The notes under the pieces: generated by a model
What the model was told of the DNA's origin: nothing
Seen by the model: only the letters and a program-made list of their open reading frames with translations
Database searches by the model: none
Part shown: piece by piece, positions 7,606 through 25,025 of the stretch
Numbering within the stretch: position 1 is the first letter of the stretch
Layout of the letters: every line of letters begins with the position of its first letter
Position numbers and translations under genes: made by a program
Source of the DNA: Streptomyces sp. NBC_01460
Lineage (GTDB): Bacteria; Actinomycetota; Actinomycetes; Streptomycetales; Streptomycetaceae
Reading direction: 5' to 3'
DNA length: 64,000 bases
Assembly: GCF_036227405.1 (NCBI RefSeq)
Contig: NZ_CP109473.1
Span: 2,914,001 to 2,978,000, forward strand

Positions 7606-7705
7606 ACCACCCGTCACCCCGCGGCGGCGCCCCCGGTCCGGTGGCCCGTACGGCACCTCCATGCCTGCCGCTCCCTCCCTCCCCCTCCCGCTAAGGAAGT
7701 CCGAC

Positions 7706-9046: not shown

Positions 9047-9057
9047 GGAGCCGGGTC

Positions 9058-10056: not shown

Positions 10057-10057
10057 G

Positions 10058-10960
10058 ATGACCAGCACCACCCTGACCAGGCCGGAAGCTCCCGTGACGA
10101 CCCGGCCGCGCGGCGCGGACGCGGCCTCGCACCGGCGCAGGCGCGTCCTGAACTGGATCGCCGTCCACTCCGTGGCCGTGGCACTCGCCCTCTTCTTCGT
10201 CCTGCCGTTCGTCTTCGTCCTCCTCACCTCGGTGATGAGCGACAGCCAGGCGATGAGCGGCGACCTGTGGCCGGACTCCTGGCACTGGTCGAACTACTCG
10301 ACCGTCTTCCACACCCCGGGGTTCCTCGACTGGTGGCGCAACTCGCTGATGTACGCCCTGCTCGGCACGGTGTTCACGGTGTGCTCGTCGGTGCCGGTCG
10401 CCTACGCCCTGGCCAAGTTCCGCTTCCGCGGCCGGCGCACCGCGATGATCCTCGTCATCTCCACGATGATGCTGCCGCCGCAGGTCATCGTCATCCCGAT
10501 GTACCTGGTCTGGTCGCAGCAGCTCCACCTCTCGGGCTCGCTGTGGCCGCTGATCATCCCGATGGCGTTCGGCGACGCCTACTCGATCTTCCTGCTGCGG
10601 CAGTTCCTGCTCACCATCCCGCAGGAGTACATCGAGTCGGCGAAGGTCGACGGGTGCGGTGAGCTCCGGACGCTCCTGCGGATCGTCGTGCCGATGGCCA
10701 AGCCGGGCATCGCCGCCGTCGCGCTCTTCCAGTTCTTCTACTGCTGGAACGACTACTTCGGACCCCAGATCTACGCGGCGCAGAATCCGGGCGCCTGGAC
10801 GCTGAGTTACGGCCTGGAGTCCTTCAAGAGCGCCCACGCGGTCAACTGGAACCTGACGATGGCGGCGACCCTGCTGGTCATGGCGCCGGTCATCATCGTG
10901 TTCTTCTTCGCACAAAAGGCCTTCGTAGAAGGCGTCACACTGACTGGAGTGAAGGGCTGA
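10058..10960 (+). CDS. csnG: Sugar ABC transporter permease CsnG
   Basis: 300 aa MalG-type permease, about six membrane helices after a cytoplasmic N-terminal tail of about 35 residues. The EAA motif is ESAKVDGCGELRTLLRIVVP. One nucleotide separates its ATG from the csnF stop, showing translational coupling. The C-terminus ends with the usual FVEGVTLTGVKG of family members. Partner of CsnF. Confidence 0.9.
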   Translation: MTSTTLTRPEAPVTTRPRGADAASHRRRRVLNWIAVHSVAVALALFFVLPFVFVLLTSVMSDSQAMSGDLWPDSWHWSNYSTVFHTPGFLDWWRNSLMYALLGTVFTVCSSVPVAYALAKFRFRGRRTAMILVISTMMLPPQVIVIPMYLVWSQQLHLSGSLWPLIIPMAFGDAYSIFLLRQFLLTIPQEYIESAKVDGCGELRTLLRIVVPMAKPGIAAVALFQFFYCWNDYFGPQIYAAQNPGAWTLSYGLESFKSAHAVNWNLTMAATLLVMAPVIIVFFFAQKAFVEGVTLTGVKG

Positions 10961-10961
10961 C

Positions 10962-12227
10962 ATGAAGCTCGCAGTAGTGGGTGGCGGGTCCACCTACACA
11001 CCTGAACTGATCGACGGGTTCGCACGGCTGCGGGACACCCTGCCCGTCGAGGAGCTGGTGCTCGTCGACCCGGCGGCCGACCGGCTGGAGCTCGTCGGCG
11101 GCCTGGCGCGCCGCATCTTCGCCAAGCAGGGCCACCCCGGCCGGATCACCACCACCTCCGACGTGGACGCGGGGGTGGAGGGCGCCGACGCGGTGCTGCT
11201 CCAGCTGCGCGTCGGCGGGCAGGCCGCGCGCAACCAGGACGAGACGTGGCCGCTGGAGTGCGGCTGCGTCGGCCAGGAGACCACCGGCGCCGGTGGTCTC
11301 GCCAAGGCGCTGCGCACGGTGCCGGTCGTCCTCGACATCGCCGAGCGGGTCCGGCGCACCAACCCGGACGCCTGGATCATCGACTTCACCAACCCGGTCG
11401 GCATCGTGACCCGCGCCCTGCTGCAGGCCGGCCACAGGACCGTCGGGCTGTGCAACGTCGCGATCGGCTTCCAGCGGAAGTTCGCGCGGCTCCTGGACGT
11501 CGCTCCGGCCGAGATCCACCTGGACCACGTCGGGCTCAACCACCTGTCGTGGGAGCTCGGGGTGCGGCTCGGCGGCCCGGACGGCGAGGACGTCCTGCCG
11601 AAGCTGCTCGCGGAGCACGGCGACACGATCGCCGGCGACCTGCGCATGCCCCGGCAGATCGTCGACCGGCTCGGTGTCGTCCCGTCGTACTACCTGCGCT
11701 ACTTCTACGCGCACGACGAGGTCGTGCGGGAGCTCGGCACCAAGCCGTCCCGGGCGGCGGAGGTCGCCGCGATGGAGAAGGAGCTCCTGGCCATGTACGG
11801 CGATCCCGCGCTGGACGAGAAGCCGGCGCTGCTCGGCAAGCGGGGCGGGGCCTTCTACTCGGAGGCGGCCGTGGACCTGGCCGCCTCGCTGCTCGGAGGG
11901 GGCGGCCCGGCCGTGCAGGTGGTCAACACGTACAACAACGGCACGCTGCCGTTCCTGCCGGACGACGCGGTGATCGAGACCCAGGCCCGGGTGGACGGCA
12001 CGGGCGCCTCCCCTCTCGCGGTCCCGGCCCTCGACCCGCTGTACGCCGGGCTCATCGCCAACGTGACGGCGTACGAGGACCTGGCGCTGGACGCCGCGCT
12101 GCGGGGCGGCCGGGACCGGGTGTTCAAGGCGCTGCTCTCGCACCCGCTCGTCGGCCAGTTCGAGTACGCCGAGGCCCTCACCGACCGGCTGATCGCACAC
12201 AACCGGGAGCACCTGGCGTGGGCGTGA
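10962..12227 (+). CDS. csnH: GH4 family NAD-dependent glycosidase CsnH
   Basis: 421 aa cytoplasmic enzyme of glycoside hydrolase family 4, which cleaves (phospho)glycosides by a redox mechanism needing NAD and Mn2+. The Rossmann start is KLAVVGGGSTYTPEL. The metal site is represented by LCN (Cys at about residue 167) and LNH (His at about 189); IDFTNPVGIVT is the family motif before the Cys. It probably splits imported glucosamine oligomers inside the cell. The ATG is 1 nt after the csnG stop, and its 3' end overlaps csnK by 10 nt. Confidence 0.88.
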   Translation: MKLAVVGGGSTYTPELIDGFARLRDTLPVEELVLVDPAADRLELVGGLARRIFAKQGHPGRITTTSDVDAGVEGADAVLLQLRVGGQAARNQDETWPLECGCVGQETTGAGGLAKALRTVPVVLDIAERVRRTNPDAWIIDFTNPVGIVTRALLQAGHRTVGLCNVAIGFQRKFARLLDVAPAEIHLDHVGLNHLSWELGVRLGGPDGEDVLPKLLAEHGDTIAGDLRMPRQIVDRLGVVPSYYLRYFYAHDEVVRELGTKPSRAAEVAAMEKELLAMYGDPALDEKPALLGKRGGAFYSEAAVDLAASLLGGGGPAVQVVNTYNNGTLPFLPDDAVIETQARVDGTGASPLAVPALDPLYAGLIANVTAYEDLALDAALRGGRDRVFKALLSHPLVGQFEYAEALTDRLIAHNREHLAWA

Positions 12228-13192
12228 ACGCTTCGGTCCTCGCCATCGACGCGGGCAACAGCAAGACCGATGTGGCACTGATCGGCGAGGACGGCACCGT
12301 CCTGTCCACGGCGCGCGGCGGCGGCTTCCAGCCGCCCGTCGTCGGTGTGGAGACGGCGGTGGACGTCCTGGCCTCGGCGATCGGACAGGCCCTGGCCGCG
12401 TCCGGGGAGCCCGTCGGGAGCGTGGAGCACGTGTCGGCGTGCCTGGCCAACGCCGATCTCCCGGTGGAGGAGGCCGAGCTGGCCGAGGCCCTGCTCGCCC
12501 GGGGCTGGGGCCGCACGGTCGAGGTGCGCAACGACACCTTCGCGATCCTGCGGGCGGCGCTGGACGAGCCCCGCGGGGTGGCCGTCGTCTGCGGTGCCGG
12601 GATCAACTGCGTGGGCATGGTCCCGGACGGCCGTACGGCCCGGTTCCCCGCGATCGGCCGGATATCGGGTGACTGGGGCGGCGGTTCGGGCCTCGCCGAG
12701 GAGGCCCTCTGGTTCGCCGCGCGGGCCGAGGACGGCCGCGGGGAGCCGACGGAGCTGGTGCGTACGCTGCCGGGGCACTTCGGCCTCGGCTCGATGTACG
12801 AGCTGATCGAGGCGCTGCACCGGGGGCTGATCCCCGCGGGGCGCCGCCACGAGCTGACGCCGGTGCTGTTCGCGACGAGCGCGGCCGGGGACACGGTGGC
12901 GAGCGCCCTGGTGGACCGGCTGGCCGGCGAGGTCGTCTCCATGGCGACGGTGGCGCTGGGACGGCTGGGACTGCTGGCCGAGGAGGTGCCGGTCGTCCTG
13001 GGCGGCAGCGTGCTGGCGGCCCGGCACTCCCGGCTGGACGACGGCATCGCCCGGCTGTTGTCGGAGCGTGCCCCGAAGGCGGTGGTCCAGGTGGTCGCGG
13101 AGCCGCCCGTCCTGGGCGCCGCGCTGCTCGGCCTGGACCACACGGGAGCGCCGGCCGGGGCGCACCGTAGGCTGCGGGCGTACTACACCTGA
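12218..13192 (+). CDS. csnK: BadF/BadG-type sugar kinase CsnK
   Basis: 324 aa ASKHA-fold kinase, likely glucosamine or N-acetylglucosamine kinase acting on the monosaccharide released by CsnH. Phosphate-1 motif IDAGNSKTDVALI at residue 9, a second glycine motif GAGINCVG, and GGSVLAARHS near the end. GTG at 12218 is preferred because GGGAG lies 8 nt upstream, giving a 10-nt overlap with csnH; GTG 12224 would give a GTGA-type overlap but worse spacing. Last gene of the operon, closed by a terminator about 20 nt downstream. Confidence 0.85.
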   Translation: MGVNASVLAIDAGNSKTDVALIGEDGTVLSTARGGGFQPPVVGVETAVDVLASAIGQALAASGEPVGSVEHVSACLANADLPVEEAELAEALLARGWGRTVEVRNDTFAILRAALDEPRGVAVVCGAGINCVGMVPDGRTARFPAIGRISGDWGGGSGLAEEALWFAARAEDGRGEPTELVRTLPGHFGLGSMYELIEALHRGLIPAGRRHELTPVLFATSAAGDTVASALVDRLAGEVVSMATVALGRLGLLAEEVPVVLGGSVLAARHSRLDDGIARLLSERAPKAVVQVVAEPPVLGAALLGLDHTGAPAGAHRRLRAYYT

Positions 13193-13422: not shown

Positions 13423-14814
13423 GTGACACACCCGCCGAGCGGGGCCGCACTGCGGGAGCCGGGGACGGACGGTCCCGTCGCGCCCGCGGCCGTGCCCGCG
13501 CAGCGCCGTGGTCTCCGGTCCGAGGCCGCCGGGCGGCTGCGCGCCGCGGCGACCACCGAGCCGGGCCGGCTGCAGATCATCGGCGCCGTACTGGCCCTGC
13601 TGGTCGTGGTGTTCGGGATGGTCACCTTCCTGGAGATCTCCGGGCGGGCGGCCTCCGCCGACGACGTGGTGGAGCGCAGCCAGCCGCTGAGCGCGGACGC
13701 CGCGAGCATCTACCGTTCTCTGGCCGACGCCGACACGATGGCCGCGAGCGGCTTCCTCGCCGGGGCGGAGGAGCCCAAGGATGTCCACGAGCAGTACGAG
13801 AAGGACATCAAGGAGGCCTCCCGGCTGCTGGTGAAGGCCGCGGCGAGCACGGACCCCTCGACCCCCTCGCACCGGGAGATCACCGAGCTGGGCGAGGGGC
13901 TCCCCGAGTACACGGGCCTGATCGAGCGGGCGAGGGCCAACAACCGCCAGGGGCTGCCGCTCGGCGGCGCCTACCTCCGGTACGCCAACCAGAAGATGAC
14001 CAACGAACTCCTCCCGGCGGCCGAGCGGTTGTACGCGGCGGAGACGGGCCGGCTCGGCACGGACTCGGCCGACGCGCGGCGGTGGCCGTTCCTCTCGCTG
14101 GCCGCCGGGATCGTCGCGCTGGCCGCGCTGGTGTGGATGCAGCGGCGCAACTACCGCCGGACGCACCGGGTCTTCAACCACGGGCTGCTCGTGGCCACGG
14201 CCGCGGCCACGGTGGTGCTGCTGTGGCTGGCCGTGGGTCACACGGTGGCCAGGGCCGAGCTGCGGGGGGCGATGGTGAACGGGCAGGAGTCGCTGGACGT
14301 CCTCAACAAGGCCCGGATCAGCTCCCTGAAGGCGCGGGCGAACGAGAACCTCACGCTGGTGGCCCGGGGCGCGGTCCTGACCCCGGACGGCACGCGGGAC
14401 AAGTACGAGAACGACTACAGCACGGGCATGAAGGCGCTCGGCGCACAGCTCGGCACCGCGGAGAAGCTCGCCGGCGACGACGCGACGGGGAGCGGACCGG
14501 TGAAGGACGCCATCAGCGGTGTCTCCGAGTGGCAGGACCGCCACAGGAAGGCCCGGACGACCGACGACCGGGGCGAGTACGATGCCGCGCTCAAGCAGAT
14601 CATCGGGCCGAAGGGCACCACGGGTCAGTCCTTCGAGCAGGTCGACGACGCGCTGCAGCAGGCGCTCGCCCATGAGCAGGGCGAGTTCGACGCGGCGGCC
14701 GGGAGCGGCCGCAGGGCACTGGGCGGGCTCCCGGCCGGCGCCGCCGTCCTCGCCCTGCTGGGCGCGGTCGCCGCGATCGTCGGGGTCAACCGCAGGCTCG
14801 CGGAGTACCGGTGA
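13423..14814 (+). CDS. Four-helix membrane protein, GlnX-like
   Basis: 463 aa with membrane helices at about 50-73, 221-240, 250-276 and 433-455. This makes two extracytoplasmic helical domains of about 145 and 155 residues with few cysteines. The layout and its position directly before a glutamate-binding-type protein and a PknG-type kinase match mycobacterial GlnX, the membrane partner that relays amino-acid occupancy of GlnH to PknG. I infer the same role; residue-level similarity could not be tested. The GTG at 13423 is chosen for GGGGGAGG just upstream; an upstream in-frame ATG (13279) has no ribosome binding site. The next gene begins about 11 nt after its stop. Confidence 0.7.
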   Translation: MTHPPSGAALREPGTDGPVAPAAVPAQRRGLRSEAAGRLRAAATTEPGRLQIIGAVLALLVVVFGMVTFLEISGRAASADDVVERSQPLSADAASIYRSLADADTMAASGFLAGAEEPKDVHEQYEKDIKEASRLLVKAAASTDPSTPSHREITELGEGLPEYTGLIERARANNRQGLPLGGAYLRYANQKMTNELLPAAERLYAAETGRLGTDSADARRWPFLSLAAGIVALAALVWMQRRNYRRTHRVFNHGLLVATAAATVVLLWLAVGHTVARAELRGAMVNGQESLDVLNKARISSLKARANENLTLVARGAVLTPDGTRDKYENDYSTGMKALGAQLGTAEKLAGDDATGSGPVKDAISGVSEWQDRHRKARTTDDRGEYDAALKQIIGPKGTTGQSFEQVDDALQQALAHEQGEFDAAAGSGRRALGGLPAGAAVLALLGAVAAIVGVNRRLAEYR

Positions 14815-14825
14815 GGGGACGAGCG

Positions 14826-15860
14826 ATGACCAGGGTGAAGGGCTGGGCGGCGCGGAGCAGGCTGCGCGGCTGGGGCGGTGTGACGGGCATGGCGGTGGCC
14901 TGCGCGGTCACGGCCTCGCTCACCCTGCTGCCGCTGGCGCACGGCGACGGGACCTTCGGCGGACTGAGCGCGGGGCAGGAGACCACCTCGGCCGTGCCGG
15001 CCAGGGCCGAGACGTGCAAGGACCCGGAGGCGAGCGTCCCCGCGTCGACCGACGACGGCCCGAGCCTCCGGAAGATCCGGGAGCGCGGGAAGCTGATCGC
15101 CGGTGTCGACCAGAACAGCTTCCAGTGGGGCTACCGGAATCCGGAGAGCCGCACCCTCGAAGGCTTCGACATCGATCTGGTGCACGCCATCGCGGAGGAC
15201 ATCCTCGGTGACCGGGACGCGGTGATCTTCCGCGCCATCCCCACCAACCAGCGGATCGCCGCCCTGGAGAACGGGAAGGTCGACGTCGTCGTCCGTACGA
15301 TGACGATCAACTGCAAGCGCGTCGGCCAGGTCGCCTTCTCCACGGCGTACTTCCAGGCCGGCCAGCAGGTCCTGGCTCCCAAGGAGTCCACGATCGACGG
15401 CTACGACGAGTCGCTGAAGGGCAAGCGCGTCTGCACGGCCGAGGGCTCCACGGCGAACGACGCGCTGAAGGAGAAGTCCTTCGGGGCGGTGTTCGAGGAC
15501 GAACACGAGGACACCGAGCGCGACGAGGACCAGCTGACCGTCCCCAACCAGCTGGACTGCCTGGTGCGGCTGCAGCTCGGTGAGGTCGACGCCGTGGTCA
15601 CGGACAACGCGCTGGCGGCCGGTCAGGCGGCGCAGGACCCGGCGGTGGAGCTCAAGGGCGACGAGCCGTTCACCACCGAGTACTACGGCGTCGCGGCCAA
15701 GCTCGGCGCCGACGACCTGGTGGCCCGGGTCAACCACGTGCTGGACGGCTACCGCCGGGGCGGTGCGAACAGCCCCTGGATGACGTCGTACCGCACCTGG
15801 CTGGCGGAGGGGCTGCCGGGCATCGAGGGGCCCCCCGCGCCGAAGTACCGGAGCAACTGA
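14826..15860 (+). CDS. glnH: Glutamate/polar amino acid-binding protein, GlnH-like
   Basis: 344 aa extracytoplasmic family 3 solute-binding protein. An uncleaved or cleaved signal segment spans about residues 20-40; there is no lipobox Cys, unlike mycobacterial GlnH, so it may stay membrane-anchored by its N-terminal helix. Binding-protein motifs: GVDQNSFQWGYRNPESRTLEG (two parts), GFDIDLVHAIAEDI and VDVVVRTMTIN. No amino-acid permease or ATPase genes are adjacent, which favours a sensor role over transport. The ATG at 14826 has GAGGGGA 7 nt upstream; GTG 14811 would overlap the preceding stop (GTGA) and is the alternative. Confidence 0.82.
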   Translation: MTRVKGWAARSRLRGWGGVTGMAVACAVTASLTLLPLAHGDGTFGGLSAGQETTSAVPARAETCKDPEASVPASTDDGPSLRKIRERGKLIAGVDQNSFQWGYRNPESRTLEGFDIDLVHAIAEDILGDRDAVIFRAIPTNQRIAALENGKVDVVVRTMTINCKRVGQVAFSTAYFQAGQQVLAPKESTIDGYDESLKGKRVCTAEGSTANDALKEKSFGAVFEDEHEDTERDEDQLTVPNQLDCLVRLQLGEVDAVVTDNALAAGQAAQDPAVELKGDEPFTTEYYGVAAKLGADDLVARVNHVLDGYRRGGANSPWMTSYRTWLAEGLPGIEGPPAPKYRSN

Positions 15861-15907
15861 ACGTGTCCGGACCCTCGGGTCCGGCTGCTGGAACGGAGAG
15901 GTGATCG

Positions 15908-17245
15908 ATGGGCGTGGCGGGATCCTTCCCCGGATTCGCGGGGAGGCCCCCCGGCCCGGTCATGGGCCGGGACGAGGCGGACCGTACGCTGGCCCGGCTC
16001 GGTGCGGAGCACGAGGCCATCGAGACCTCGCTCCTCGCCCTGGAGGAACACGCCGGTCGCCGGCTCCTGGAGGGCGCCACGCTGGCCGGTGTCACCGAGG
16101 AGCGCTGGGGTTCCACCAAGCGGTCGATCACGTTGCTCTGGCGGTACTTCGACGCGTACGCCGGGGCGCTGGCCTCGGCCCGTGAGATCCGGGCCAGGCG
16201 CCGCTACCCCGGCAGGAGCGACCTGGTGGCCCTGACCGACCTGCTGCGCGGTGACGGTGTGACCGTGGCGAACCAGGGAGCGACCGGCCCCGGTGTCTCG
16301 CTCACCCGACCGGCCCGGCTCTCCGAGCGGTTCACGCTGGAGGAGCTGGTCGCCCGGATGAACGACCTGTACGCCCAGGCGCTGGACATGATCCTCGCGT
16401 CGGACTCCGTATGGTCGGCACTGCCCGCCCGGATAGACCTGCTGGCCGCCGAGCTGCGCCGCACCGCCTCGCTGGCGCACTCCGTCGGGGTGCGGCCCGG
16501 GGAGCATCCGGCCGGTGACGACCTGGAGGCGATCGCCGAGGAGCTGGCCGCGCTGCGGAAGCAGGTGATCTCGGATCCACTGGCGTTCTGGGTGCCGGGC
16601 CCCGGCAGTGCCGCCCCCGGCGGAGGGCGGCCCGACACCACGCGCTACGACCGCGCGGCACTCGCCCTGGAGGAGGTACGCCGGGAGATCGAAGCGGTGC
16701 TGGCGGTCCGGCAGGACGCCGAGCAGCGCCTGATCCAGGTGCGTGACCTGCTGTCGCGCGCGAACCGCACGCTCGCCGAGGCCCGGTTGGCGCGCGGCGA
16801 GGTGCTGGCGAAGATCGCCGCCTCCGAGGTGCCCGCGGTCAGCGGGCCGCCGACCGTGCTGCAGGAGCGGCTCGCGACGGCGTCGGCGTACCGCAGGCAC
16901 GCCCAGTGGAACCGGCTGTCGCCTCTGCTGGAGTCGCTGGAGCGGGAGGCCGAGGACGAACTGCTGCGCGCCCGGGAGTCGCTGACGTCCGTCACGGGGC
17001 CGCTCGCGGTCCGGGCGGAGCTGCGGGGCAGGCTGGACGCGTACAAGGCGAAGGTGGCCCGGCACGGTCTGGCCGAGGACCCGCTCCTGATCGAGCGGTA
17101 CGACGCGGCCCGCCGGATGCTGTGGAGCGCGCCGTGCGACCTTCGCGTCGCCGAACAGGCGGTCCTGCGCTACCAGCTGGCCGCCACCGACCTGCTGACA
17201 CAGCACCGTCCGGACAGGCACGACGGACAGGGGGAGACATCATGA
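15908..17245 (+). CDS. Coiled-coil protein of the PknG-type kinase cluster
   Basis: 445 aa, predicted soluble, no signal peptide or membrane helix. Almost entirely helical with long Ala/Glu/Arg/Leu heptad-like stretches at about 20-110, 150-215 and 245-400. No enzyme motif recognised. It overlaps the kinase gene by 4 nt (ATGA at 17242-17245), so the two proteins are made together; a scaffold between the membrane sensor and the kinase is a reasonable guess. The start ATG at 15908 has GGAGAGG about 7 nt upstream; ATG 15962 is a possible internal alternative. Confidence 0.72.
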   Translation: MGVAGSFPGFAGRPPGPVMGRDEADRTLARLGAEHEAIETSLLALEEHAGRRLLEGATLAGVTEERWGSTKRSITLLWRYFDAYAGALASAREIRARRRYPGRSDLVALTDLLRGDGVTVANQGATGPGVSLTRPARLSERFTLEELVARMNDLYAQALDMILASDSVWSALPARIDLLAAELRRTASLAHSVGVRPGEHPAGDDLEAIAEELAALRKQVISDPLAFWVPGPGSAAPGGGRPDTTRYDRAALALEEVRREIEAVLAVRQDAEQRLIQVRDLLSRANRTLAEARLARGEVLAKIAASEVPAVSGPPTVLQERLATASAYRRHAQWNRLSPLLESLEREAEDELLRARESLTSVTGPLAVRAELRGRLDAYKAKVARHGLAEDPLLIERYDAARRMLWSAPCDLRVAEQAVLRYQLAATDLLTQHRPDRHDGQGETS

Positions 17246-20028
17246 GTACGGAGTGCCAGCGCCCCGCGTGCGAGGGCAGTTACGAGGACATGGGCGGCGG
17301 TGAGCTGTACTGCGGCACCTGCGGCCTCGCGCCGGTCGTGTCGCCGACGGGCATGGTGAGTTCACCGCCCACCGGCATCGCGGGCGGTGGCAGGGCTGCC
17401 GGCGGCAGGGGGAGCGGCAGCACCTCGCAGCGGACCGGTTCCCAGGCGTCCGCCCGCTCCTCGTCGCGCTCGTCGACCTCCCGGCGTTCGGTCTCCGGGC
17501 GGCTCTCCCGCTCCTTGTCCGGGAGCTCCACGTCCCGCTCCGTGTCGGTGCGCTCCTCGGGCACCTCCACGGGCTCCACCTCCGGACGCGGCAGGCTGGG
17601 CGCGGGCCTGGTGCTCGTCCCCGACGTGCCGCGGCCCGACCCGCGCACCGCGGTGATGGACAACCCCGAGGTCCCCGAGCGGAAGCGCTTCTGCTCGCGG
17701 TCCGACTGCGGGGCGCCGGTCGGCCGGGCCCGCGGGGACCGGCCCGGCCGTACCGAGGGGTTCTGCACCAAATGCGGCCACCCCTACTCCTTCGTGCCGA
17801 AGCTGCGCGGCGGCGACGTCGTGCACGGGCAGTACGAGGTCGCCGGCTGCCTGGCCCACGGCGGGCTCGGCTGGGTCTACCTCGCCGTGGACCGCGCCGT
17901 CTCCGACCGCTGGGTGGTCCTCAAGGGCCTGCTGGACACCGGGGACCAGGACGCCATGGCCGCGGCCATCTCCGAGCGGCGCTTCCTCGCGGAGATCGAG
18001 CACTCCAACATCGTCCGCATCTACAACTTCGTGGAGCACCTGGACCAGCGCACCGGTTCGCTCGACGGCTACATAGTGATGGAGTACGTCGGCGGCAAGG
18101 CGCTCAAGGAGATCGCCAACGAGCGCCGGACACCGGGCGGGAGGCGGGACCCGCTGCCGGTCGAGCAGGCCTGCGCGTACGGGATCGAGGCGCTGGAGGC
18201 GCTGGGACACCTGCACAGCCGCAACCTGCTGTACTGCGACTTCAAGGTCGACAACGCGATCCAGACCGAGGACCAGCTCAAGCTCATCGACATGGGCGCG
18301 GTGCGCCGGATGGACGACGACGAGTCGGCCATCTACGGCACCGTCGGCTACCAGGCGCCCGAGGTGGCCGAGACCGGCCCGTCCGTCGCCTCCGACCTCT
18401 ACACGGTGGCGCGGACGCTCGCGGTGCTGACCTTCGACTTCCAGGGGTACACGAACGTCTTCGTGGACTCCCTGCCCGATCCGGACAACATCGAGGTGTT
18501 CCGGAGGTACGAGTCGTTCTACCGGCTGCTCGTGCGGGCGACGGACCCGGACCCGGCCCGCCGCTTCTCCTCGGCCTCGGAGATGGCGGAGCAGCTGACC
18601 GGGGTCCTGCGAGAGGTGGTCGCCCTGCAGACGGGCCGTCCGCGCCCGGCGCTCTCGACCCTCTTCGGCACGGAACTGCGCGTGACGGACACGGAGTTGT
18701 TCGCGGAGCTGACCGGCGAGGCGTCCCGGCTCGGCGCCCGGACGGGCCCGTCCGGCGGCGCGGGGTTCTTCGGGCGCCGCCGCAGGCCGGCCGTCACCAC
18801 CACGACGCACCCCGCGTCGGCGCTGACGGCCGCGTTTCCCGTCGCCCCCACCGTCGCCGCCCCGCAGCCGGTGCCGGCCGGCGCGGGCCCTCTGTACGCG
18901 CCCGCCACCCATGTCCGGGGAAGCACGGGGAGCACAGGGGGCACGGGAAGCACGGGGAGCGCGGCGACGGGCGGCGCGCCGTCGTACGTGCCACCGCTGC
19001 CGGCGGTCCCCGCTCCCCGGGCGGCGGTCGTGGAACCGGGCCCCGTCCCGGGGGCGTACCCGGCCGCGGGTCCCCGGCTCGCCGCGTTCGACGCACGGGC
19101 GACCTCGCTGGCCCTGCCGGTCCCCCGGGTGGACCCGAACGACCCCAACGCCGGTTTTCTGGCCGGGGTGATGGCCTCGGCGCCCGCCGAGCTGGTCTCC
19201 GCACTGCACTCCGTGCCGGCCGCCTCGCTGGAGACCAGGCTGCGGGAGCTCCGCGCCCGCCTGGAGATGGACGAACTCGGCTCCGCCGTACGGGCGCTGA
19301 CGGCGGTGGAGTCGGAGCACCCGGACGACTGGCGGGTCGTCTGGTACCGCGGGATCGCCTCCCTGGTGACCGGTGACCACGAGAACGCCGCGCTGTCCTT
19401 CGACGCGGTGTACGACGCGTTCCCCGGCGAGCCCGCCCCGAAGCTCGCGCTCGGCATCTGCGCGGAGGTGCTGGGGCAGCTGGACAACGCCGCGGAGTAC
19501 TACCGCCTGGTGTGGGTGACCGACCCGAGTTTCGTCAGCGCGGCGTTCGGTCTGGCCCGGGTGCAGCTCGCCGCCGGCAACAGGGCCACGGCGGTGCACA
19601 CCCTGGAGTCCGTGCCGGAGTCGTCCATCCATTACACGGCGGCCCGGGTGGCGGCGGTGCGGGCACGGCTCCGTGAGCGGGCCCCGCACGAGCCGCTGAT
19701 CCAGGACCTCTCCGCGGCCGCCGACCAGGTGACCGCGCTGCGGGCCTACGGCCTGGACGCGGTGAGACGCGAGCAGTTGTCGACCGAGGTACTGGGTACG
19801 GCGCTCGACTGGGTACTCTCCGGTAGTCCCACGGCTCAGCCGGCCGCTCCGTCCTCCCCCGCGACCGCGGCGCCGAGGACGGTGCTCGGCAGTGAGCTGG
19901 ACGAGCGGGGCCTCAGGTTCGGTCTCGAACGCTCGTACCGGATGCTCGCCCGGCTCGCGCAGCGGGGCGACGAGAGGATCGAACTGGTGGAGCGGGCCAA
20001 CCGTTTCCGCCCCCGGACCTGGGTGTGA
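17242..20028 (+). CDS. pknG: PknG-type serine/threonine protein kinase with zinc ribbons and TPR domain
   Basis: 928 aa soluble kinase. Order: zinc ribbon at 5-27 (Cys5, Cys10, Cys24, Cys27), a Ser/Thr/Arg-rich linker, a second rubredoxin-like ribbon at about 150-180 (FCSRSDCG, then FCTKCGHPYSF), kinase domain about 195-470, a Pro/Gly/Ser/Thr linker, and TPR-like helical repeats from about 650 onward. Kinase residues: Lys in VVLKG, catalytic loop YCDFKVDN (YCD replaces HRD), metal motif IDMG instead of DFG, as in mycobacterial PknG (LIDLG). Mycobacterial PknG controls glutamate metabolism through GarA; here the FHA protein encoded downstream is a candidate substrate. ATG 17242 overlaps the previous stop. 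Confidence 0.88.
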   Translation: MSTECQRPACEGSYEDMGGGELYCGTCGLAPVVSPTGMVSSPPTGIAGGGRAAGGRGSGSTSQRTGSQASARSSSRSSTSRRSVSGRLSRSLSGSSTSRSVSVRSSGTSTGSTSGRGRLGAGLVLVPDVPRPDPRTAVMDNPEVPERKRFCSRSDCGAPVGRARGDRPGRTEGFCTKCGHPYSFVPKLRGGDVVHGQYEVAGCLAHGGLGWVYLAVDRAVSDRWVVLKGLLDTGDQDAMAAAISERRFLAEIEHSNIVRIYNFVEHLDQRTGSLDGYIVMEYVGGKALKEIANERRTPGGRRDPLPVEQACAYGIEALEALGHLHSRNLLYCDFKVDNAIQTEDQLKLIDMGAVRRMDDDESAIYGTVGYQAPEVAETGPSVASDLYTVARTLAVLTFDFQGYTNVFVDSLPDPDNIEVFRRYESFYRLLVRATDPDPARRFSSASEMAEQLTGVLREVVALQTGRPRPALSTLFGTELRVTDTELFAELTGEASRLGARTGPSGGAGFFGRRRRPAVTTTTHPASALTAAFPVAPTVAAPQPVPAGAGPLYAPATHVRGSTGSTGGTGSTGSAATGGAPSYVPPLPAVPAPRAAVVEPGPVPGAYPAAGPRLAAFDARATSLALPVPRVDPNDPNAGFLAGVMASAPAELVSALHSVPAASLETRLRELRARLEMDELGSAVRALTAVESEHPDDWRVVWYRGIASLVTGDHENAALSFDAVYDAFPGEPAPKLALGICAEVLGQLDNAAEYYRLVWVTDPSFVSAAFGLARVQLAAGNRATAVHTLESVPESSIHYTAARVAAVRARLRERAPHEPLIQDLSAAADQVTALRAYGLDAVRREQLSTEVLGTALDWVLSGSPTAQPAAPSSPATAAPRTVLGSELDERGLRFGLERSYRMLARLAQRGDERIELVERANRFRPRTWV

Positions 20029-20030
20029 AG

Positions 20031-21389
20031 ATGTCAGAGATCCACGGGCGGGCCTCCTTGGCGGGGTGCCCCGGCTGCGAGGAACCGCTGGAATCGGGCG
20101 ACCTGTTCTGCGGGGCGTGCGGGTACGACCTCTCGGCGGTGCCGACGCCGCCGGGCGACCGTCCGACGGTCGCCATCACGGTGCCCGCACAGGGCGTGGC
20201 GTCGTCCGCCGCCGGTCCCGTGGCGTGGCCGGCCGCCTCCGAGGCCGACAGCTCCGACGTGCCGGCTCCGACGCACCGCCCGGCCGACCTCCCGGGCGTG
20301 GACTCGGGCGGCAGGCCCCTGCCCACCGCGGAGCGGGCGGCGGTCCGCTTCGACGAGCCCGGCGGCACCGCCCCGGAGCCTCCCGGCGAGCCCTCGGGCG
20401 ACTTCGAGCTGGCCGCGCCCGACCCCCGTACCGTGGAGCACGCCGCCGCGGGGGCCTCGGCGGCCGGTGCCAAGATCTGTGTGGCGTGCCGCTCGGGCCG
20501 GGTGGACCCCGACGGCTACTGCGAGAACTGCGGCCACGCCCAGCCCCGCGAGCGCGACCACATGGAGCAGGAGCTCGGTTCGGTGGCCGCGGTCAGCGAC
20601 CGCGGCCTGCGTCACCACCGCAACGAGGACGCGTTCGCGGTGTCCTGCACCGCCCTGCCGGACGGCTCGCCGGCGGTCGTCGCCGTCGTGTGCGACGGCG
20701 TCTCCTCCGCGAGCCGCCCCGACGAGGCCTCGGCCGCGGCCGCGAGCGCGGCCAACGAGGCGCTGCTGGAGTCGCTGCCGCGCGGGACCCATCCGCAGCA
20801 GGCGATGCACGAGGCGATCCTCGCGGCGTCGGAGGCCGTCAACGCGCTGGCCCAGGACTCCGGTCAGGCCCTGGAACACGAGCAGCAGCGCCACCAGAAC
20901 GCCCCGGCGTGCACCCTGGTCGGCGCGATCGCGGCGGGCGGCCTGCTGGTCGTCGGCTGGGTGGGTGACAGCCGCGTCTACTGGGTCCCCGAGGACCGCG
21001 CCGATCCGCCGGCCCGGCTCACGGAGGACGACTCCTGGGCCGCGCAGATGGTGGCGGCCGGCCTGATGAACGAGGCGGAGGCGTACGCCGACGAGCGCGC
21101 CCACGCCATCACGGGCTGGCTCGGCGCCGACGCGTACGACCTGGAGCCGCACACCGCGTCCTTCAAACCGGACCGGCCCGGCCTGGTCGTGGTGTGCACC
21201 GACGGCTTGTGGAACTACGCGGAGGGCGCGGCGGAGATTGCCGCGGCCGTGCCGCCCGACGCGTACGAACGGCCGTTGCACGGGGCCCAGGTGCTGGTCG
21301 GTCACGCGCTCGACGGCGGGGGCCACGACAACGTAACAGTGGCGCTCCTGCCGTTCGCCGTGGCCGCACCAGGGGCAGGATCGGCCTGA
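20031..21389 (+). CDS. PP2C-family protein phosphatase with two zinc ribbons
   Basis: 452 aa soluble Ser/Thr phosphatase. Zinc ribbon 1 (CPGCEEPLESGDLFCGACG, about residues 14-33) and ribbon 2 (CVACRSG to CENCG, about 150-170) are joined by a Pro-rich linker. The PP2C domain (about 187-440) keeps the metal-binding residues: SDRGLRHHRNEDAF, VCDGVSS, GWVGDSRVYWV, CTDGLWNYAEG and GGHDNVTVALL. It should reverse phosphorylation by the kinase encoded immediately upstream. The ATG at 20031 is 2 nt after the kinase stop; GTG 20025 would give a GTGA overlap. Neither has a clear ribosome binding site, so coupling is likely. Confidence 0.9.
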   Translation: MSEIHGRASLAGCPGCEEPLESGDLFCGACGYDLSAVPTPPGDRPTVAITVPAQGVASSAAGPVAWPAASEADSSDVPAPTHRPADLPGVDSGGRPLPTAERAAVRFDEPGGTAPEPPGEPSGDFELAAPDPRTVEHAAAGASAAGAKICVACRSGRVDPDGYCENCGHAQPRERDHMEQELGSVAAVSDRGLRHHRNEDAFAVSCTALPDGSPAVVAVVCDGVSSASRPDEASAAAASAANEALLESLPRGTHPQQAMHEAILAASEAVNALAQDSGQALEHEQQRHQNAPACTLVGAIAAGGLLVVGWVGDSRVYWVPEDRADPPARLTEDDSWAAQMVAAGLMNEAEAYADERAHAITGWLGADAYDLEPHTASFKPDRPGLVVVCTDGLWNYAEGAAEIAAAVPPDAYERPLHGAQVLVGHALDGGGHDNVTVALLPFAVAAPGAGSA

Positions 21390-21435
21390 GCCCACGCCCG
21401 GTCCGCCGGCGCCCGGCCGGTGGTCCGGCCGGCCC

Positions 21436-21525
21436 GTCGCCCCTACGCCGTCCCGTCCCTACGCCGTCCCGTCCCCACGCTTACCGGTCCCTACGCTTCC
21501 CGGTCTTCACGCCTTCCCGTCCGCG
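21436..21525. repeat. Degenerate 16-bp tandem repeats between PP2C and VWA genes
   Basis: Five to six copies of a roughly 16-nt unit close to GTCCCTACGCCGTCCC, becoming more divergent towards 21525. The repeats fill the gap between the PP2C stop and the VWA gene. Function unknown; possibly a spacer, an mRNA element or slippage product. Confidence 0.7.
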
Positions 21526-21624
21526 CACGCCGGGGCCGCCGCGCTCGCCCCGGTCCTTCGGCCGTAAGTCCGTCCGCACACCTGTCTTCGTCCGACCTAC
21601 GTGGAGCCTCAAGGAGCCGCTCAG

Positions 21625-22986
21625 ATGGCCAACTTCTCCAAGTCCAACGTGCCGCAGTTCTCCGTCGAGGTGTACCAGAACGAATTCCTGCCCGAGGGCG
21701 GCCGTGACGTCAACGCGATCGTCACCGTCACGTCCACGGGCGGGGGGACGACGGGCCGTGTCCCCCTGGCCGACGGCACCCCGGCCGCCGTGCGCGTCCC
21801 GGGGCAGGCGCCGAACGCGGCCGTGGTGCTCATGGTCGACTGCTCGGGCTCGATGGACTACCCGCCGACGAAGATGCGCAACGCGCGCGACGCGACGGCG
21901 GCGGCCATCGACACCCTGCGTGACGGCACGCGGTTCGCCGTGGTGGCGGGAACGCACGTGGCCAACGACGTGTACCCGGGCAACGGGCAGTTGGCGACGG
22001 CCGATCCGGGGACCAAGGCGCAGGCGAAGGAGGCCCTGCGCCGGCTGAGCGCGGGCGGGGGAACCGCCATCGGGACCTGGCTGCGGCTGGCCGACCGGCT
22101 GCTGGGGGCCGCCGAGGTGGACATCCGGCACGGCATCCTCCTGACGGACGGGCGCAACGAGCACGAGTCCCCGGAGGATCTGCGGGCCGCCCTCGACTCC
22201 TGTGCGGGCCGGTTCACCTGTGACGCGCGAGGTGTCGGCACCGACTGGGAGGTGAAAGAGGTCACAGCGATCGCCTCCGCCCTGCTCGGCACGGCGGACA
22301 TCGTCGCCGATCCGGCCGGCCTCGCCGCGGACTTCACCCGGATGATGGAGAACGCGATGGGCAAGGAGGTCGCGGACGTGGCGCTGCGGCTCTGGACGCC
22401 CGTCGGGGTCGAGATCGTGTTCGTCAAGCAGGTGGCGCCGACGGTCGCCGAACTGACCGGCCGCCGCACCGAGTCCGGGCCGCGGTCCGGTGACTACCCG
22501 ACCGGGTCCTGGGGTGACGAGTCCCGGGACTACCACGTGTGCGTGAGGGTTCCGGAGGCCGGGATCGGTCAGGAGATGCTGGCGGCCCGGGTCTCGCTGA
22601 TCCTGCCGGCCCCGTCGGACGGCGGTGCCCCGCAGACCCTCTCCCAGGGTCTCGTCCGCGCGGTGTGGACGGACGACATGGCCGCTTCGACCTCGATCAA
22701 CCCCCAGGTGGCGCACTACACGGGGCAGGCCGAACTGGCGCAGGTCATCCAGCAGGGACTGGATGCGCGCAAATCGGGAGACTTCGACGGCGCTACGGCG
22801 AAACTGGGGCGTGCGGTGCAGCTCGCGTCGGCCTCCGGAAACGCGGATACTGCGAAACTGCTTTCGAAGGTGGTCGACGTCGTCGACGCGGCGACGGGTA
22901 CTGTGCGACTGAAAGCAAGGGTCGCGGAAGCGGACGAGATGACCCTCGAAACGCGCTCGACCAAGACAGTTCGCGTCAAGAAATAG
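21625..22986 (+). CDS. VWA-domain protein (TerY/YegL-like chaperone or adaptor)
   Basis: 453 aa, no signal peptide, so cytoplasmic. The von Willebrand factor A domain occupies about 65-250, with MIDAS residues VDCSGSMDYP (Asp72), GGGTAIGT and LTDGRNEHES. It is followed by a beta-rich region and a C-terminal helical segment (about 390-440) with QAELAQVIQQGLDARKSGD. VWA, PP2C and kinase genes together recall the TerY-P triads, in which VWA proteins help assemble phospho-signalling complexes. The start at ATG 21625 (MANFSKSN) is preferred over 21601 because AAGGAG lies just upstream. Confidence 0.85.
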   Translation: MANFSKSNVPQFSVEVYQNEFLPEGGRDVNAIVTVTSTGGGTTGRVPLADGTPAAVRVPGQAPNAAVVLMVDCSGSMDYPPTKMRNARDATAAAIDTLRDGTRFAVVAGTHVANDVYPGNGQLATADPGTKAQAKEALRRLSAGGGTAIGTWLRLADRLLGAAEVDIRHGILLTDGRNEHESPEDLRAALDSCAGRFTCDARGVGTDWEVKEVTAIASALLGTADIVADPAGLAADFTRMMENAMGKEVADVALRLWTPVGVEIVFVKQVAPTVAELTGRRTESGPRSGDYPTGSWGDESRDYHVCVRVPEAGIGQEMLAARVSLILPAPSDGGAPQTLSQGLVRAVWTDDMAASTSINPQVAHYTGQAELAQVIQQGLDARKSGDFDGATAKLGRAVQLASASGNADTAKLLSKVVDVVDAATGTVRLKARVAEADEMTLETRSTKTVRVKK

Positions 22987-23098
22987 CGACGCGGACGACA
23001 ACGGCAGAACCGCACCGAGAGCCGTCCCGGCCGACCGGACGGTGCACCGACACGCATGACGGCCTCCGGGCCGGACGAGGAGAGGGGGAAGCGCCGAC

Positions 23099-24535
23099 AT
23101 GCCGACCTGCCCGAACGGACACCAGTCGGGTTCCGAGGACTGGTGCGAGGTCTGCGGACATCGCATGGCCGGGGCGAGCGCGCCCGCGGGCGCCGTCCCG
23201 CCGCCGCCTCCCCCGCCGCCCGCGCCCGGTTACGGCTATCCGCAGGGCCCGGGCCCCGGACAGCAGACCGTCCAGGCCGAGCTCTGCCCGCAGTGCCGCA
23301 CCCCGCGTGAGCCGATGGCTCCGTACTGCGAGGAGTGCCGCTGGAACTTCCTCACGAACACGGCGACGTCGTACACGCCGCTGGCCCCGCAGGGCGGTGT
23401 CGGTGGACCGCCCGGGCTGAACCTGCCGCCCGGCTTCCAGGCCCAGCAGGGCCCGCCGCAGCAGCGGGATCCGTTCGAGTACCAGGGCTCCCGGCCTTCG
23501 CAGATGAACCGGCCGGCCGAGCCGCTCTCGCCGGAGCAGGACGACCGGCAGGGCCCGCCGCCGCCCCCGCACTCCTTCCAGCAGGGGCCGCCGCCCCCGC
23601 CGTCGTTCCAGCAGCAGTCGCCGTCCCCGTTCGAGGCGCAGGGCCGCCCGGGCCAGGGGCCGGGCCAGCAGGGACCGGGGCCGCAGGGCCCCGGTCAGCA
23701 GGGTCCCGGTCAGCAGGCCGGCCCGCCGTCGCCGTTCGACCCGCAGGGCAGGCCGGGTCAGCCGGGCCCCCAGGGGCCCGGACACCAGGGTCCCGGACAC
23801 CAGGGTCCCGGACAGCAGGGGCCCGGACAGCAGGGACCGGGCGGGCAGAGTGGCCCGCCGTCGCCGTTCGAGCCGCAGCGGCAGGGGCCGCCTCCCCCGC
23901 CGTCGTTCCAGCAGCAGTCCGCGCCGCCCGCGCCGCAGCGGCCCCAGGCGCCGCAGACCGGTGGGGGCGACGACTGGATGCTGCCGCCGCCCTCGCAGCA
24001 GCAGCCGCCGCAGGGCTTCCAGCAGGCACCGCAGGCCCCCCAGGCGCCTCAAGCACCGCAGGCATCCCAGCCTCCTCAGCAGCAGTTCCCCGGCCAGAGC
24101 TTCGCCCAGGGCGGGCCCGACCAGGGGCCGGGCAGTTGGACGGCCGTCATCGCGCCGGACCGCGACTACTTCCTGGCGATGATGCAGCGGAGCGGCCCGG
24201 AGGCGACCGGACTGAACCTGCCCGCGTACTCCCCGGAGCAGCGCCTCGCGCTCACCGGCAGCCAGATCACCATCGGCCGCCGCCGGCACAGCACCGGCGA
24301 GTCCCCCGACATCGATCTCGCCGTGCCGCCGGAGGATCCGGGTGTCTCGCACCAGCACGCCGTGCTGGTGCAGCAGCCGGACGGCACCTGGGCCGTCGTC
24401 GACCAGAACTCCACCAACGGCACCACGCTCAACGGCGCCGAGGACCCGATCCAGCCCTATGTCCCCGTCCCGCTCCAGGACGGCGACCAGGTGCACGTCG
24501 GGGCCTGGACGACGATCACGGTCCGCCGCGACTGA
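23099..24535 (+). CDS. FHA-domain protein with zinc ribbons and Gly-Pro-Gln repeat linker
   Basis: 478 aa. N-terminal zinc ribbons: TCPNGHQSGSEDWCEVCGH (residues 3-22) and CPQCR to CEEC (about 63-81). Then a long Pro/Gly/Gln linker (about 95-345) with collagen-like GPGQQ, GPQ and GPGHQ repeats, and a C-terminal FHA domain (about 375-478) with ITIGRRRHS, VSHQHAVL and NSTNGTTLNG, a canonical phosphothreonine-binding set. It is a candidate substrate and effector of the PknG-type kinase, analogous to GarA/OdhI, though those lack zinc ribbons and the long linker. ATG 23099 follows a purine-rich GAGAGGGGGAAG. A 42-bp palindrome follows the stop. Confidence 0.88.
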   Translation: MPTCPNGHQSGSEDWCEVCGHRMAGASAPAGAVPPPPPPPPAPGYGYPQGPGPGQQTVQAELCPQCRTPREPMAPYCEECRWNFLTNTATSYTPLAPQGGVGGPPGLNLPPGFQAQQGPPQQRDPFEYQGSRPSQMNRPAEPLSPEQDDRQGPPPPPHSFQQGPPPPPSFQQQSPSPFEAQGRPGQGPGQQGPGPQGPGQQGPGQQAGPPSPFDPQGRPGQPGPQGPGHQGPGHQGPGQQGPGQQGPGGQSGPPSPFEPQRQGPPPPPSFQQQSAPPAPQRPQAPQTGGGDDWMLPPPSQQQPPQGFQQAPQAPQAPQAPQASQPPQQQFPGQSFAQGGPDQGPGSWTAVIAPDRDYFLAMMQRSGPEATGLNLPAYSPEQRLALTGSQITIGRRRHSTGESPDIDLAVPPEDPGVSHQHAVLVQQPDGTWAVVDQNSTNGTTLNGAEDPIQPYVPVPLQDGDQVHVGAWTTITVRRD

Positions 24536-24557
24536 TCCGGCGATCCCACGACGCCCG

Positions 24558-24599
24558 CCGGCCGAGGACCGGGGTCCTAGGACCCCGGTCCTCGGCCGG
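24558..24599. terminator. 42-bp perfect palindrome between FHA gene and truncated haemoglobin gene
   Basis: Arms 24558-24577 and 24580-24599 are perfect reverse complements around TA; the centre reads GGTCCTAGGACC. As RNA it gives a very stable hairpin ending the upstream operon. It finishes only 21 nt before the next start codon, unusually close. Confidence 0.8.
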
Positions 24600-24620
24600 T
24601 GCGTCTGCGACGATGGACGG

Positions 24621-25025
24621 GTGACAGAGATTCCGCGCGACACGCTTCAGGAGCAGACCTTCTACGAGCAGGTCGGCGGCGAGGAGACCTTCCGGCGCCT
24701 GGTGCACCGCTTCTACCAGGGCGTAGCCGAGGACCCGCTGCTGCGGCCGATGTACCCGGAGGCGGATCTCGGCCCGGCCGAGGAACGGTTCACGCTGTTC
24801 CTCATGCAGTACTGGGGCGGTCCGCGCACCTACAGCGACCAGCGGGGGCACCCGCGGCTCCGGATGCGCCACGCCCCGTTCCAGGTGGACAGGGCGGCGC
24901 ACGACGCCTGGCTCGGTCACATGCGGGTGGCCCTCGACGAGCTCGGCCTTCCCCCCGAGCACGAGAGGCAGTTGTGGGACTACCTCACCTACGCCGCCGC
25001 CTCGATGGTCAACACCGCGGGGTGA
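24621..25025 (+). CDS. glbO: Group II truncated haemoglobin (GlbO type)
   Basis: 134 aa haem protein of the 2-over-2 globin fold. FYEQVGGEETFRRLVHRFY near the start, MQYWGGPRTYSDQRGHPRLR in the middle and RMRHAPF with the proximal histidine (about residue 77) match GlbO. These proteins bind O2 or handle NO and reactive oxygen. The GTG at 24621 gives the standard N-terminus TEIPRDTLQEQTF; no good ribosome binding site precedes it, and the large palindrome ends 21 nt upstream. A short-leader or near-leaderless transcript, or readthrough, would be needed. Confidence 0.9.
   Translation: MTEIPRDTLQEQTFYEQVGGEETFRRLVHRFYQGVAEDPLLRPMYPEADLGPAEERFTLFLMQYWGGPRTYSDQRGHPRLRMRHAPFQVDRAAHDAWLGHMRVALDELGLPPEHERQLWDYLTYAAASMVNTAG

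Follow-up and report, generated by a model that had tools for sequence, protein, structure and literature searches.

A seven-gene PknG locus of Streptomyces that may combine a sensor-kinase module with a separable CC-PP2C-FHA module

Introduction

When a PknG-type kinase is encoded together with a phosphatase, a phospho-reader and two further soluble proteins, do all of these form one circuit, or does part of the set serve other purposes? The question is raised by seven consecutive genes, all on the plus strand, at positions 13423-24535 of a 64,000-nucleotide stretch of Streptomyces sp. NBC_01460 (contig NZ_CP109473.1, positions 2,914,001 to 2,978,000), here called the window. We propose, with a probability of roughly 60%, that the locus consists of two modules. 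A sensor-kinase module (module 1) would contain GlnH, GlnX, PknG and usually a VWA protein, and an output and reset module (module 2) would contain a coiled-coil-like protein (CC), a PP2C phosphatase and an FHA protein. The proposal draws on gene content, gene order, active sites, the shared occurrence of PknG with GlnX and VWA, and recurrent losses of the kinase that spare the reading frames of module 2.

PknG signalling is so far known from an apparently reduced operon. Excerpts of PMC6069109 describe GlnH, GlnX and PknG as conserved across Actinobacteria, including Streptomyces. In the known pathway, GlnH binds amino acids outside the cell, GlnX relays the signal, the TPR domain of PknG is the proposed signal receiver, and PknG phosphorylates FHA-domain regulators (excerpts of PMC6069109, PMC8546545 and PMC9769921). 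The text of open-licence PMC papers yielded no description of the seven-gene form or of its extra members. The conservation of GlnX, GlnH and PknG is already published; what we consider new is the proposed two-module behaviour of the seven-gene form.

Results and discussion

The seven genes of the locus

The genes of the window, all on the plus strand, are as follows.

13423..14814, plus strand: GlnX-family four-helix membrane signal transducer, 463 amino acids (aa); NF058618
14811..15860, plus strand: GlnH-like extracytoplasmic amino-acid-binding protein, 349 aa; SBP_bac_3
15908..17245, plus strand: CC, coiled-coil-like soluble protein without a family, 445 aa
17242..20028, plus strand: PknG kinase, 928 aa; N-terminal zinc ribbon, S/T/R-rich linker, rubredoxin, kinase and TPR domains
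20025..21389, plus strand: PP2C phosphatase with two N-terminal zinc ribbons, 454 aa; PP2C_2
21625..22986, plus strand: VWA protein with an intact metal-ion-dependent adhesion site (MIDAS) and a VWA_3_C domain, 453 aa; alternative GTG start at 21601
23099..24535, plus strand: FHA protein, 478 aa; two N-terminal zinc ribbons, Pro/Gln/Gly-rich linker, C-terminal FHA domain

An earlier note, made from the window's sequence alone, had described these genes as a single sense-phosphorylate-reset circuit, and its gene calls hold: third-position GC is 0.89-0.95 and the family matches far exceed what chance would give. An overlap of 4 nt is found at three junctions (GlnX/GlnH, CC/PknG and PknG/PP2C). 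The gap between GlnH and CC is 47 nt, compared to 235 nt between PP2C and VWA and 112 nt between VWA and FHA, which points to tight coupling of the first five genes and looser coupling of the last two. A promoter and terminator scan of the locus, using a model ill-suited to this genome, found nothing. No eighth conserved gene was recognised near PknG in a search whose output was mostly shadow frames.

Repeated kinase loss in Streptomyces

Evidence for two modules comes from species that have lost the kinase. In a genus sample of 295 genomes, CC was matched in 292 (E <= 1e-50) and PknG in 272. The 23 genomes without a PknG match (20 listed; G682, G688 and G704 deduced from absence) include seven in which the loss is seen in the DNA and three that also lack CC. 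Among the 13 others, PknG DNA adjoins CC in 12 and the contig ends first in one; the misses of the TPR search in those 12 are explained by a contig end where one is evident, which excludes G561 and G610. With G414, which comes from a class sample of 296 genomes, eight kinase losses are known (G290, G414, G510, G633, G649, G682, G688 and G704). The CC of G510 equals that of S. fulvorobeus (locus L263).

In all eight, the DNA beside CC shows PknG to be gone or reduced to a short remnant. As to the sensor genes, G290 and G510 have a broken GlnH, and the DNA next to CC yielded none in the remaining six. A genome-wide search recovered a GlnX fragment in G290 and none in G414; G682 retains a fragment, the view of GlnX in the other five is confined to the near-upstream stretch of DNA, and L263 shows none over 10 kb. 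Six of the eight genomes have no VWA or a broken one, and in G649 and G688 it is intact. The frames of CC (422-483 aa), PP2C and FHA, in contrast, are open in every one of the eight. By pattern, PP2C motifs are complete in seven (one pattern was missed in G649), and FHA motifs likewise in seven (one missed in G704). Zinc ribbons persist in most cases, with the second PP2C ribbon found in 8/8 and the first in 5/8, and the first FHA ribbon in 8/8 and the second in 7/8. The components of the supposed single circuit are thus not lost together, and the open frames of CC, PP2C and FHA suggest a probable use apart from PknG.

On a bootstrapped tree of CC, the kinase losses need five changes. A single clade of losses is rejected (p-AU 1.4e-111, approximately unbiased test), in a comparison where four of the lost rows are long-branched and the group is named for its trait. 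Four of the lost rows form one clade (support 100/90). Across its six pairs, the ratio of nonsynonymous to synonymous substitution rates (dN/dS) of CC is 0.26-0.34 at 17-29% protein divergence. In a control of kinase keepers, the median is 0.23 (5-95%: 0.17-0.30; 239 of 250 random pairs, 56 named loci). Judged by these ratios, purifying selection on CC has continued in this clade, and if the kinase was lost only once there, CC would have been under selection ever since.

The surviving frames could instead reflect decay in slow motion. The longer CC branches of four kinase-less rows and dN/dS values somewhat above those of keepers are in line with such a process. We consider it improbable, however, given that the same three frames are open after five independent losses, while PknG has been deleted or broken each time and VWA mostly so, and that dN/dS of CC lies far below 1 at substantial protein divergence.

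Several points weigh against two separable modules. The frames in the kinase losses were judged from stop to stop. Values of dN/dS in the kinase-less clade are higher for PP2C (0.33-0.49) and FHA (0.40-0.59) than for CC and stand without a keeper control. Kinase-less genomes are few, and since they were identified from the DNA next to CC, losses of the whole locus are under-counted. For the three genus genomes that match neither CC nor PknG, completeness is 79%, 98% and 99%, with assemblies of 480-740 contigs. Damage to CC is seen in a few kinase keepers too: it is split in G023/L053, lies in two pieces in G695 and carries one TGA in G533. Sequencing errors aside, CC is therefore not indispensable. 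Since VWA stays intact in two of the eight losses, it can be placed in module 1 only loosely. In the family coded f63, two paralogous PknG loci keep CC and FHA without PP2C. Finally, module 2 as a set was surveyed beside PknG and at sites where PknG has been lost.

Conservation of gene order and co-inheritance

In the class sample, PknG_TPR is matched in 99 genomes. One hundred neighbourhoods and the window together represent 84 of these, so that 15 genomes and some additional sites lie outside the set. Scoring used profiles derived from the window proteins, and genes were ordered by stop codon. The earlier note had called for a neighbourhood survey, and in Streptomyces the genes prove to be clustered rather than scattered. 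The order GlnX-GlnH-CC-PknG-PP2C-VWA-FHA occurs in 24 of 26 main Streptomyces loci, the other two ending at contig ends; among the 24, CC is split into two frames in L053 and PknG is split in L061. The 80 named Streptomyces loci fetched by CC include 61 with all seven genes in order. Contig ends shorten 17 of the remaining 19, and the two long ones, L263 (a kinase loss) and L271, lack a GlnX match. The same gene order, with CC detected or not, recurs in families f56, f71 and f85, in nine f63 loci and in one f3 locus, and the PP2C-VWA-FHA tail was found in seven family codes besides Streptomyces. In f62, GlnX-GlnH sits at the opposite end of the cluster, which shows that the genes stay associated despite rearrangement.

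GlnX is matched in 97 of the 296 class genomes (E <= 1e-25) and VWA in 64 (E <= 1e-60), and every one of these matches falls within the PknG genomes; Fisher values for this overlap do not correct for relatedness. G172 and G361 have PknG without GlnX; G290 was counted for PknG, GlnX and VWA on account of fragments. These patterns, together with the tight junctions and an order conserved across families, are what would be expected of one dedicated circuit, in which GlnH-GlnX-CC-PknG phosphorylates the FHA protein, PP2C resets it, VWA acts as a bridge and zinc ribbons join the soluble parts. We nevertheless regard a single circuit as rather unlikely, because CC, PP2C and FHA frames, with most of their ribbons and active-site motifs, persist in the eight kinase-less genomes.

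In favour of two modules, nineteen PknG loci were sorted as paralogues, seven with a same-strand VWA gene and none with PP2C. At nine second PknG loci of f63 (L085, L098, L106, L119, L144, L089, L095, L112 and L146), GlnH-GlnX is divergent; CC, VWA and FHA are retained at L089, L112 and L146, and PP2C is in none of the nine. Distant Streptomyces paralogues of PknG occur at L147, L148, L149, L150 and L151. In the first four, neither rubredoxin nor strong neighbours from the set were detected (L150 has GlnX at 25 bits), and in L151 rubredoxin and VWA are present.

Zinc ribbons and the OdhI/GarA orthologue

Ribbons on three proteins are a further argument for one circuit. The earlier note had assigned two ribbons each to the kinase, PP2C and the FHA protein. 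This is correct for PP2C and FHA; the kinase has one ribbon, its supposed second being the known PknG rubredoxin domain. In 25 Streptomyces main loci, the FHA protein always has two ribbons and the kinase always has its N-terminal ribbon, and PP2C shows two by pattern in 18 and one in seven. In f63, the pattern finds two PP2C ribbons in 4/12, one in 2/12 and none in 6/12, which is partly the pattern's fault, and several kinases show no N-terminal ribbon. The sole seven-gene f3 copy has the kinase ribbon, whereas no clear N-terminal one is seen in kinases of the short f3 loci, which again favours a single circuit. An independent-pairs test of the kinase ribbon against the PP2C/FHA tail gave means of 1.8 pairs changing the same way and 0.1 the opposite way; with only seven pairs, and automatic calls that mistake rubredoxin for a ribbon in some rows, it is too small to decide.

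A ribbon also occurs outside the locus. The genome encodes an OdhI/GarA orthologue elsewhere (G000:C1:1245855-1246187, L153), distinct from the operon FHA protein, with an ETTS phosphorylation motif and an N-terminal ribbon; its score of 188.9 bits falls short of the family cut-off (200). Among 79 loci (from L153 and L161-L250) examined from 285 genomes with a match, 61 have the ribbon. It is found in 30 of 34 rows without PknG (the other four being two without a ribbon, one misparsed and one not found) compared to 31 of 45 rows with PknG. The 14 lacking it are all 12 f3 rows, one f72 row and one f89 row; it is also absent in an f80 row. The OdhI/GarA ribbon is hence not tied to PknG, which speaks against a dedicated circuit assembled through ribbons. 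The zinc ribbon as a pathway tag was rejected, as the OdhI/GarA ribbon is frequent with or without PknG. Assembly with the kinase through the ribbons, as the earlier note envisaged, finds no support here either, given that the PP2C and FHA ribbons mostly outlast the kinase.

Sensor and kinase proteins

The membrane protein had been suspected of a relationship to GlnX, and this is confirmed by NF058618 (486.2 bits, E 8.9e-146, cut-off 250; NCBIfam) and by four hydrophobic segments. The narrower GlnX equivalog NF041460 was matched below its cut-off (184.4 vs 780). GlnH is a family-3 solute-binding protein (SBP_bac_3, 9.4e-21; Pfam) whose best PDB match is GlnH 6h1u (4.2e-43). It has one hydrophobic segment, at the N-terminus, and inspection by eye revealed no clear lipobox. 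With contact-residue roles taken from excerpts of PMC6069109, four of seven pocket contacts are identical (R147, T162, R169 and D250), K161R and S164T are conservative, and W232 is replaced by Q. That position is Q in 24/25 Streptomyces and Y in 16/16 f62 loci. As W232 is lost while the backbone contacts are kept, the GlnH ligand may differ from Asp/Glu.

The kinase has the rubredoxin, kinase and TPR architecture of the known pathway (PknG_TPR 9.3e-88, PknG_rubred 2e-32 and Pkinase 8.8e-25; Pfam) and aligns with 2pzi at 2.9e-164. The Lys, the catalytic Asp and the DFG-type Asp are conserved, both Asp residues being invariant. The helix-C Glu column holds E in 25/25 Streptomyces vs 29/69 others. 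Between ribbon and rubredoxin, the S/T- and R-rich linker of Streptomyces PknG contains a conserved RSVSGRLSRSLSG...RSVSVRSSG tract (residues about 30-150), which resembles a phosphorylation or docking segment. N-terminal autophosphorylation sites of mycobacterial and corynebacterial PknG recruit FHA substrates, and the linker, at roughly the same position, may by analogy have the same recruiting role.

CC, PP2C, VWA and FHA proteins

CC matches no Pfam or NCBIfam family at 1e-3 and has no hydrophobic segment. In 32 of 34 members the top Pfam match is the coiled-coil family Myosin_tail_1, which does not reach the cut-off. The best PDB profile match is CMPX-383B (0.0033, over 90 residues). The PP2C domain (PP2C_2, 4.5e-15; Pfam) has its metal-site residues in 25/25 Streptomyces and nearly all of 38 others. 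The VWA protein (VWA_3_C 1.4e-22, VWA_2 6e-9; Pfam) gave only TIGR03788, below cut-off, in the NCBIfam scan, and keeps its MIDAS residues in 26/26 Streptomyces and 34/35 others. In the FHA domain (2.1e-15; Pfam), the phospho-pocket GR, S, H and NG is found in 25/25 Streptomyces and in 33-36 of 36 elsewhere.

An adjacent PP2C gene and a MIDAS-bearing VWA gene beside a kinase recall the TerY-P triads, and the locus might accordingly be a VWA-PP2C-kinase triad for stress or defence that has borrowed an amino-acid sensor. Such triads recur, also in Actinobacteria, as excerpts of PMC11090510 and PMC7159879 report, and they share with this locus zinc ribbons and the joint encoding of VWA, PP2C and a Ser/Thr kinase. 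The TerY-P kinase, however, has a C-terminal zinc ribbon or OB fold (PMC11090510, excerpt), whereas the kinase here is of PknG type, with an N-terminal ribbon and a C-terminal PknG_TPR domain, and its gene stands with those of an amino-acid sensor and of an FHA protein. PADLOC matches among the seven proteins amount to the kinase domain plus one weak PP2C, and the distribution in Streptomyces is common rather than patchy (272/295), making this origin very unlikely. The GAP1-N2 GTPase systems, as portrayed in excerpts of PMC7159879, likewise comprise a zinc-ribbon kinase, an adjacent PP2C and a stand-alone vWA in Actinobacteria; there these accompany GTPase conflict systems, here GlnH, GlnX and FHA, with no search aimed at a GTPase having been made.

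The short mycobacterial operon

Excerpts on the GlnH-GlnX-PknG-OdhI/GarA pathway of mycobacteria and Corynebacterium show homologous, adjacent GlnX, GlnH and PknG, and our genome shares an OdhI/GarA orthologue with ETTS. The Streptomyces locus differs in four more genes (CC, PP2C, VWA and FHA), an extra PknG zinc ribbon, a ribboned OdhI/GarA and the W232 to Q change in GlnH. In excerpts of PMC6069109, PMC9769921 and PMC8546545, no gene for a phosphatase, VWA or CC protein is mentioned in connection with the known operon.

In family f3, 15 of 18 fetched loci consist of GlnX-GlnH-PknG alone, a further point in favour of two modules. One kinase tried from its genus g3 scored 1399.8 bits over the whole of 2pzi, and from this score g3 is in all likelihood Mycobacterium. 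In a kinase-TPR tree of 83 rows, with only SH-aLRT (approximate likelihood ratio) support, the 18 f3 rows form one group (99), within which 17 short-operon rows are a clade (100). Its sister is L152 (G419:C144), a seven-gene copy with the same family and genus code. G419, of Mycobacterium type, has three pknG loci, with GlnX-GlnH-PknG at L345 and L346 and the complete seven-gene set at L152. A second short locus, L127, is placed inside f62, whose loci mostly carry the tail. The polarity of the change was read from the accepted order of species. Because the tail is present in Streptomyces, f63, f71 and f62, parsimony and this order make the short form the derived one. The drawn root is weak (63), which counts against our interpretation, as a root on the short-f3 branch would undo the derived state. 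Subject to rooting, the three-gene mycobacterial operon looks reduced, and the earlier notion of a mycobacterial-type sensor that was extended is probably backwards.

A tentative extension, which we would not yet favour, is that CC-PP2C-FHA is a separate unit reading and erasing phospho-signals for several kinases and that the mycobacterial operon is a remnant of an ancestral seven-gene system. If so, the stripped operon would explain why no phosphatase gene lies beside the mycobacterial kinase. According to an excerpt of PMC6554272, GarA is refractory to phosphatase once phosphorylated, and turnover replaces it; this fits the absence of a linked phosphatase in mycobacteria.

A possible mechanism of two modules

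The mechanism given here is our inference as regards the substrates, the ligand, what CC and VWA do and all contacts between the proteins. Module 1 would sense extracytoplasmic amino acids and convert this signal into kinase activity of PknG, in the manner known from mycobacteria and Corynebacterium, with VWA probably a metal-dependent adaptor for PknG. In module 2, the FHA protein would bind phosphothreonine, PP2C would dephosphorylate, and CC is probably a scaffold. In species with PknG, output and reset of the kinase most likely fall to module 2, beside the distant OdhI/GarA; as the latter is encoded elsewhere, the operon FHA protein would be a second possible output. Where PknG has been lost, module 2 persists, presumably for other Ser/Thr kinases. 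The linked phosphatase, phospho-reader and two further proteins of this fuller form make a reset step and further outputs testable in Streptomyces. Kinase-less species are natural knock-outs, separating PknG-dependent from PknG-independent functions.

Flanking genes

Upstream of the locus (window 7661-13192) lie a sugar ATP-binding cassette transporter, a GH4 (glycoside hydrolase family 4) enzyme and a sugar-kinase-like gene, all named by eye. We likened the last, upstream of GlnX, to SCO2662, a saccharide kinase linked to chitosan uptake (excerpt of PMC6520443), and by gene counting infer that SCO2666 is the PknG of this locus. SCO2666 is one of four phosphorylated S. coelicolor kinases, on solid medium (excerpt of PMC9600765). 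Downstream (window 24342-25025) is a truncated-globin-like frame, also named by eye. The kinase-less G414 likewise has a GH4-like and a globin-like frame near the locus.

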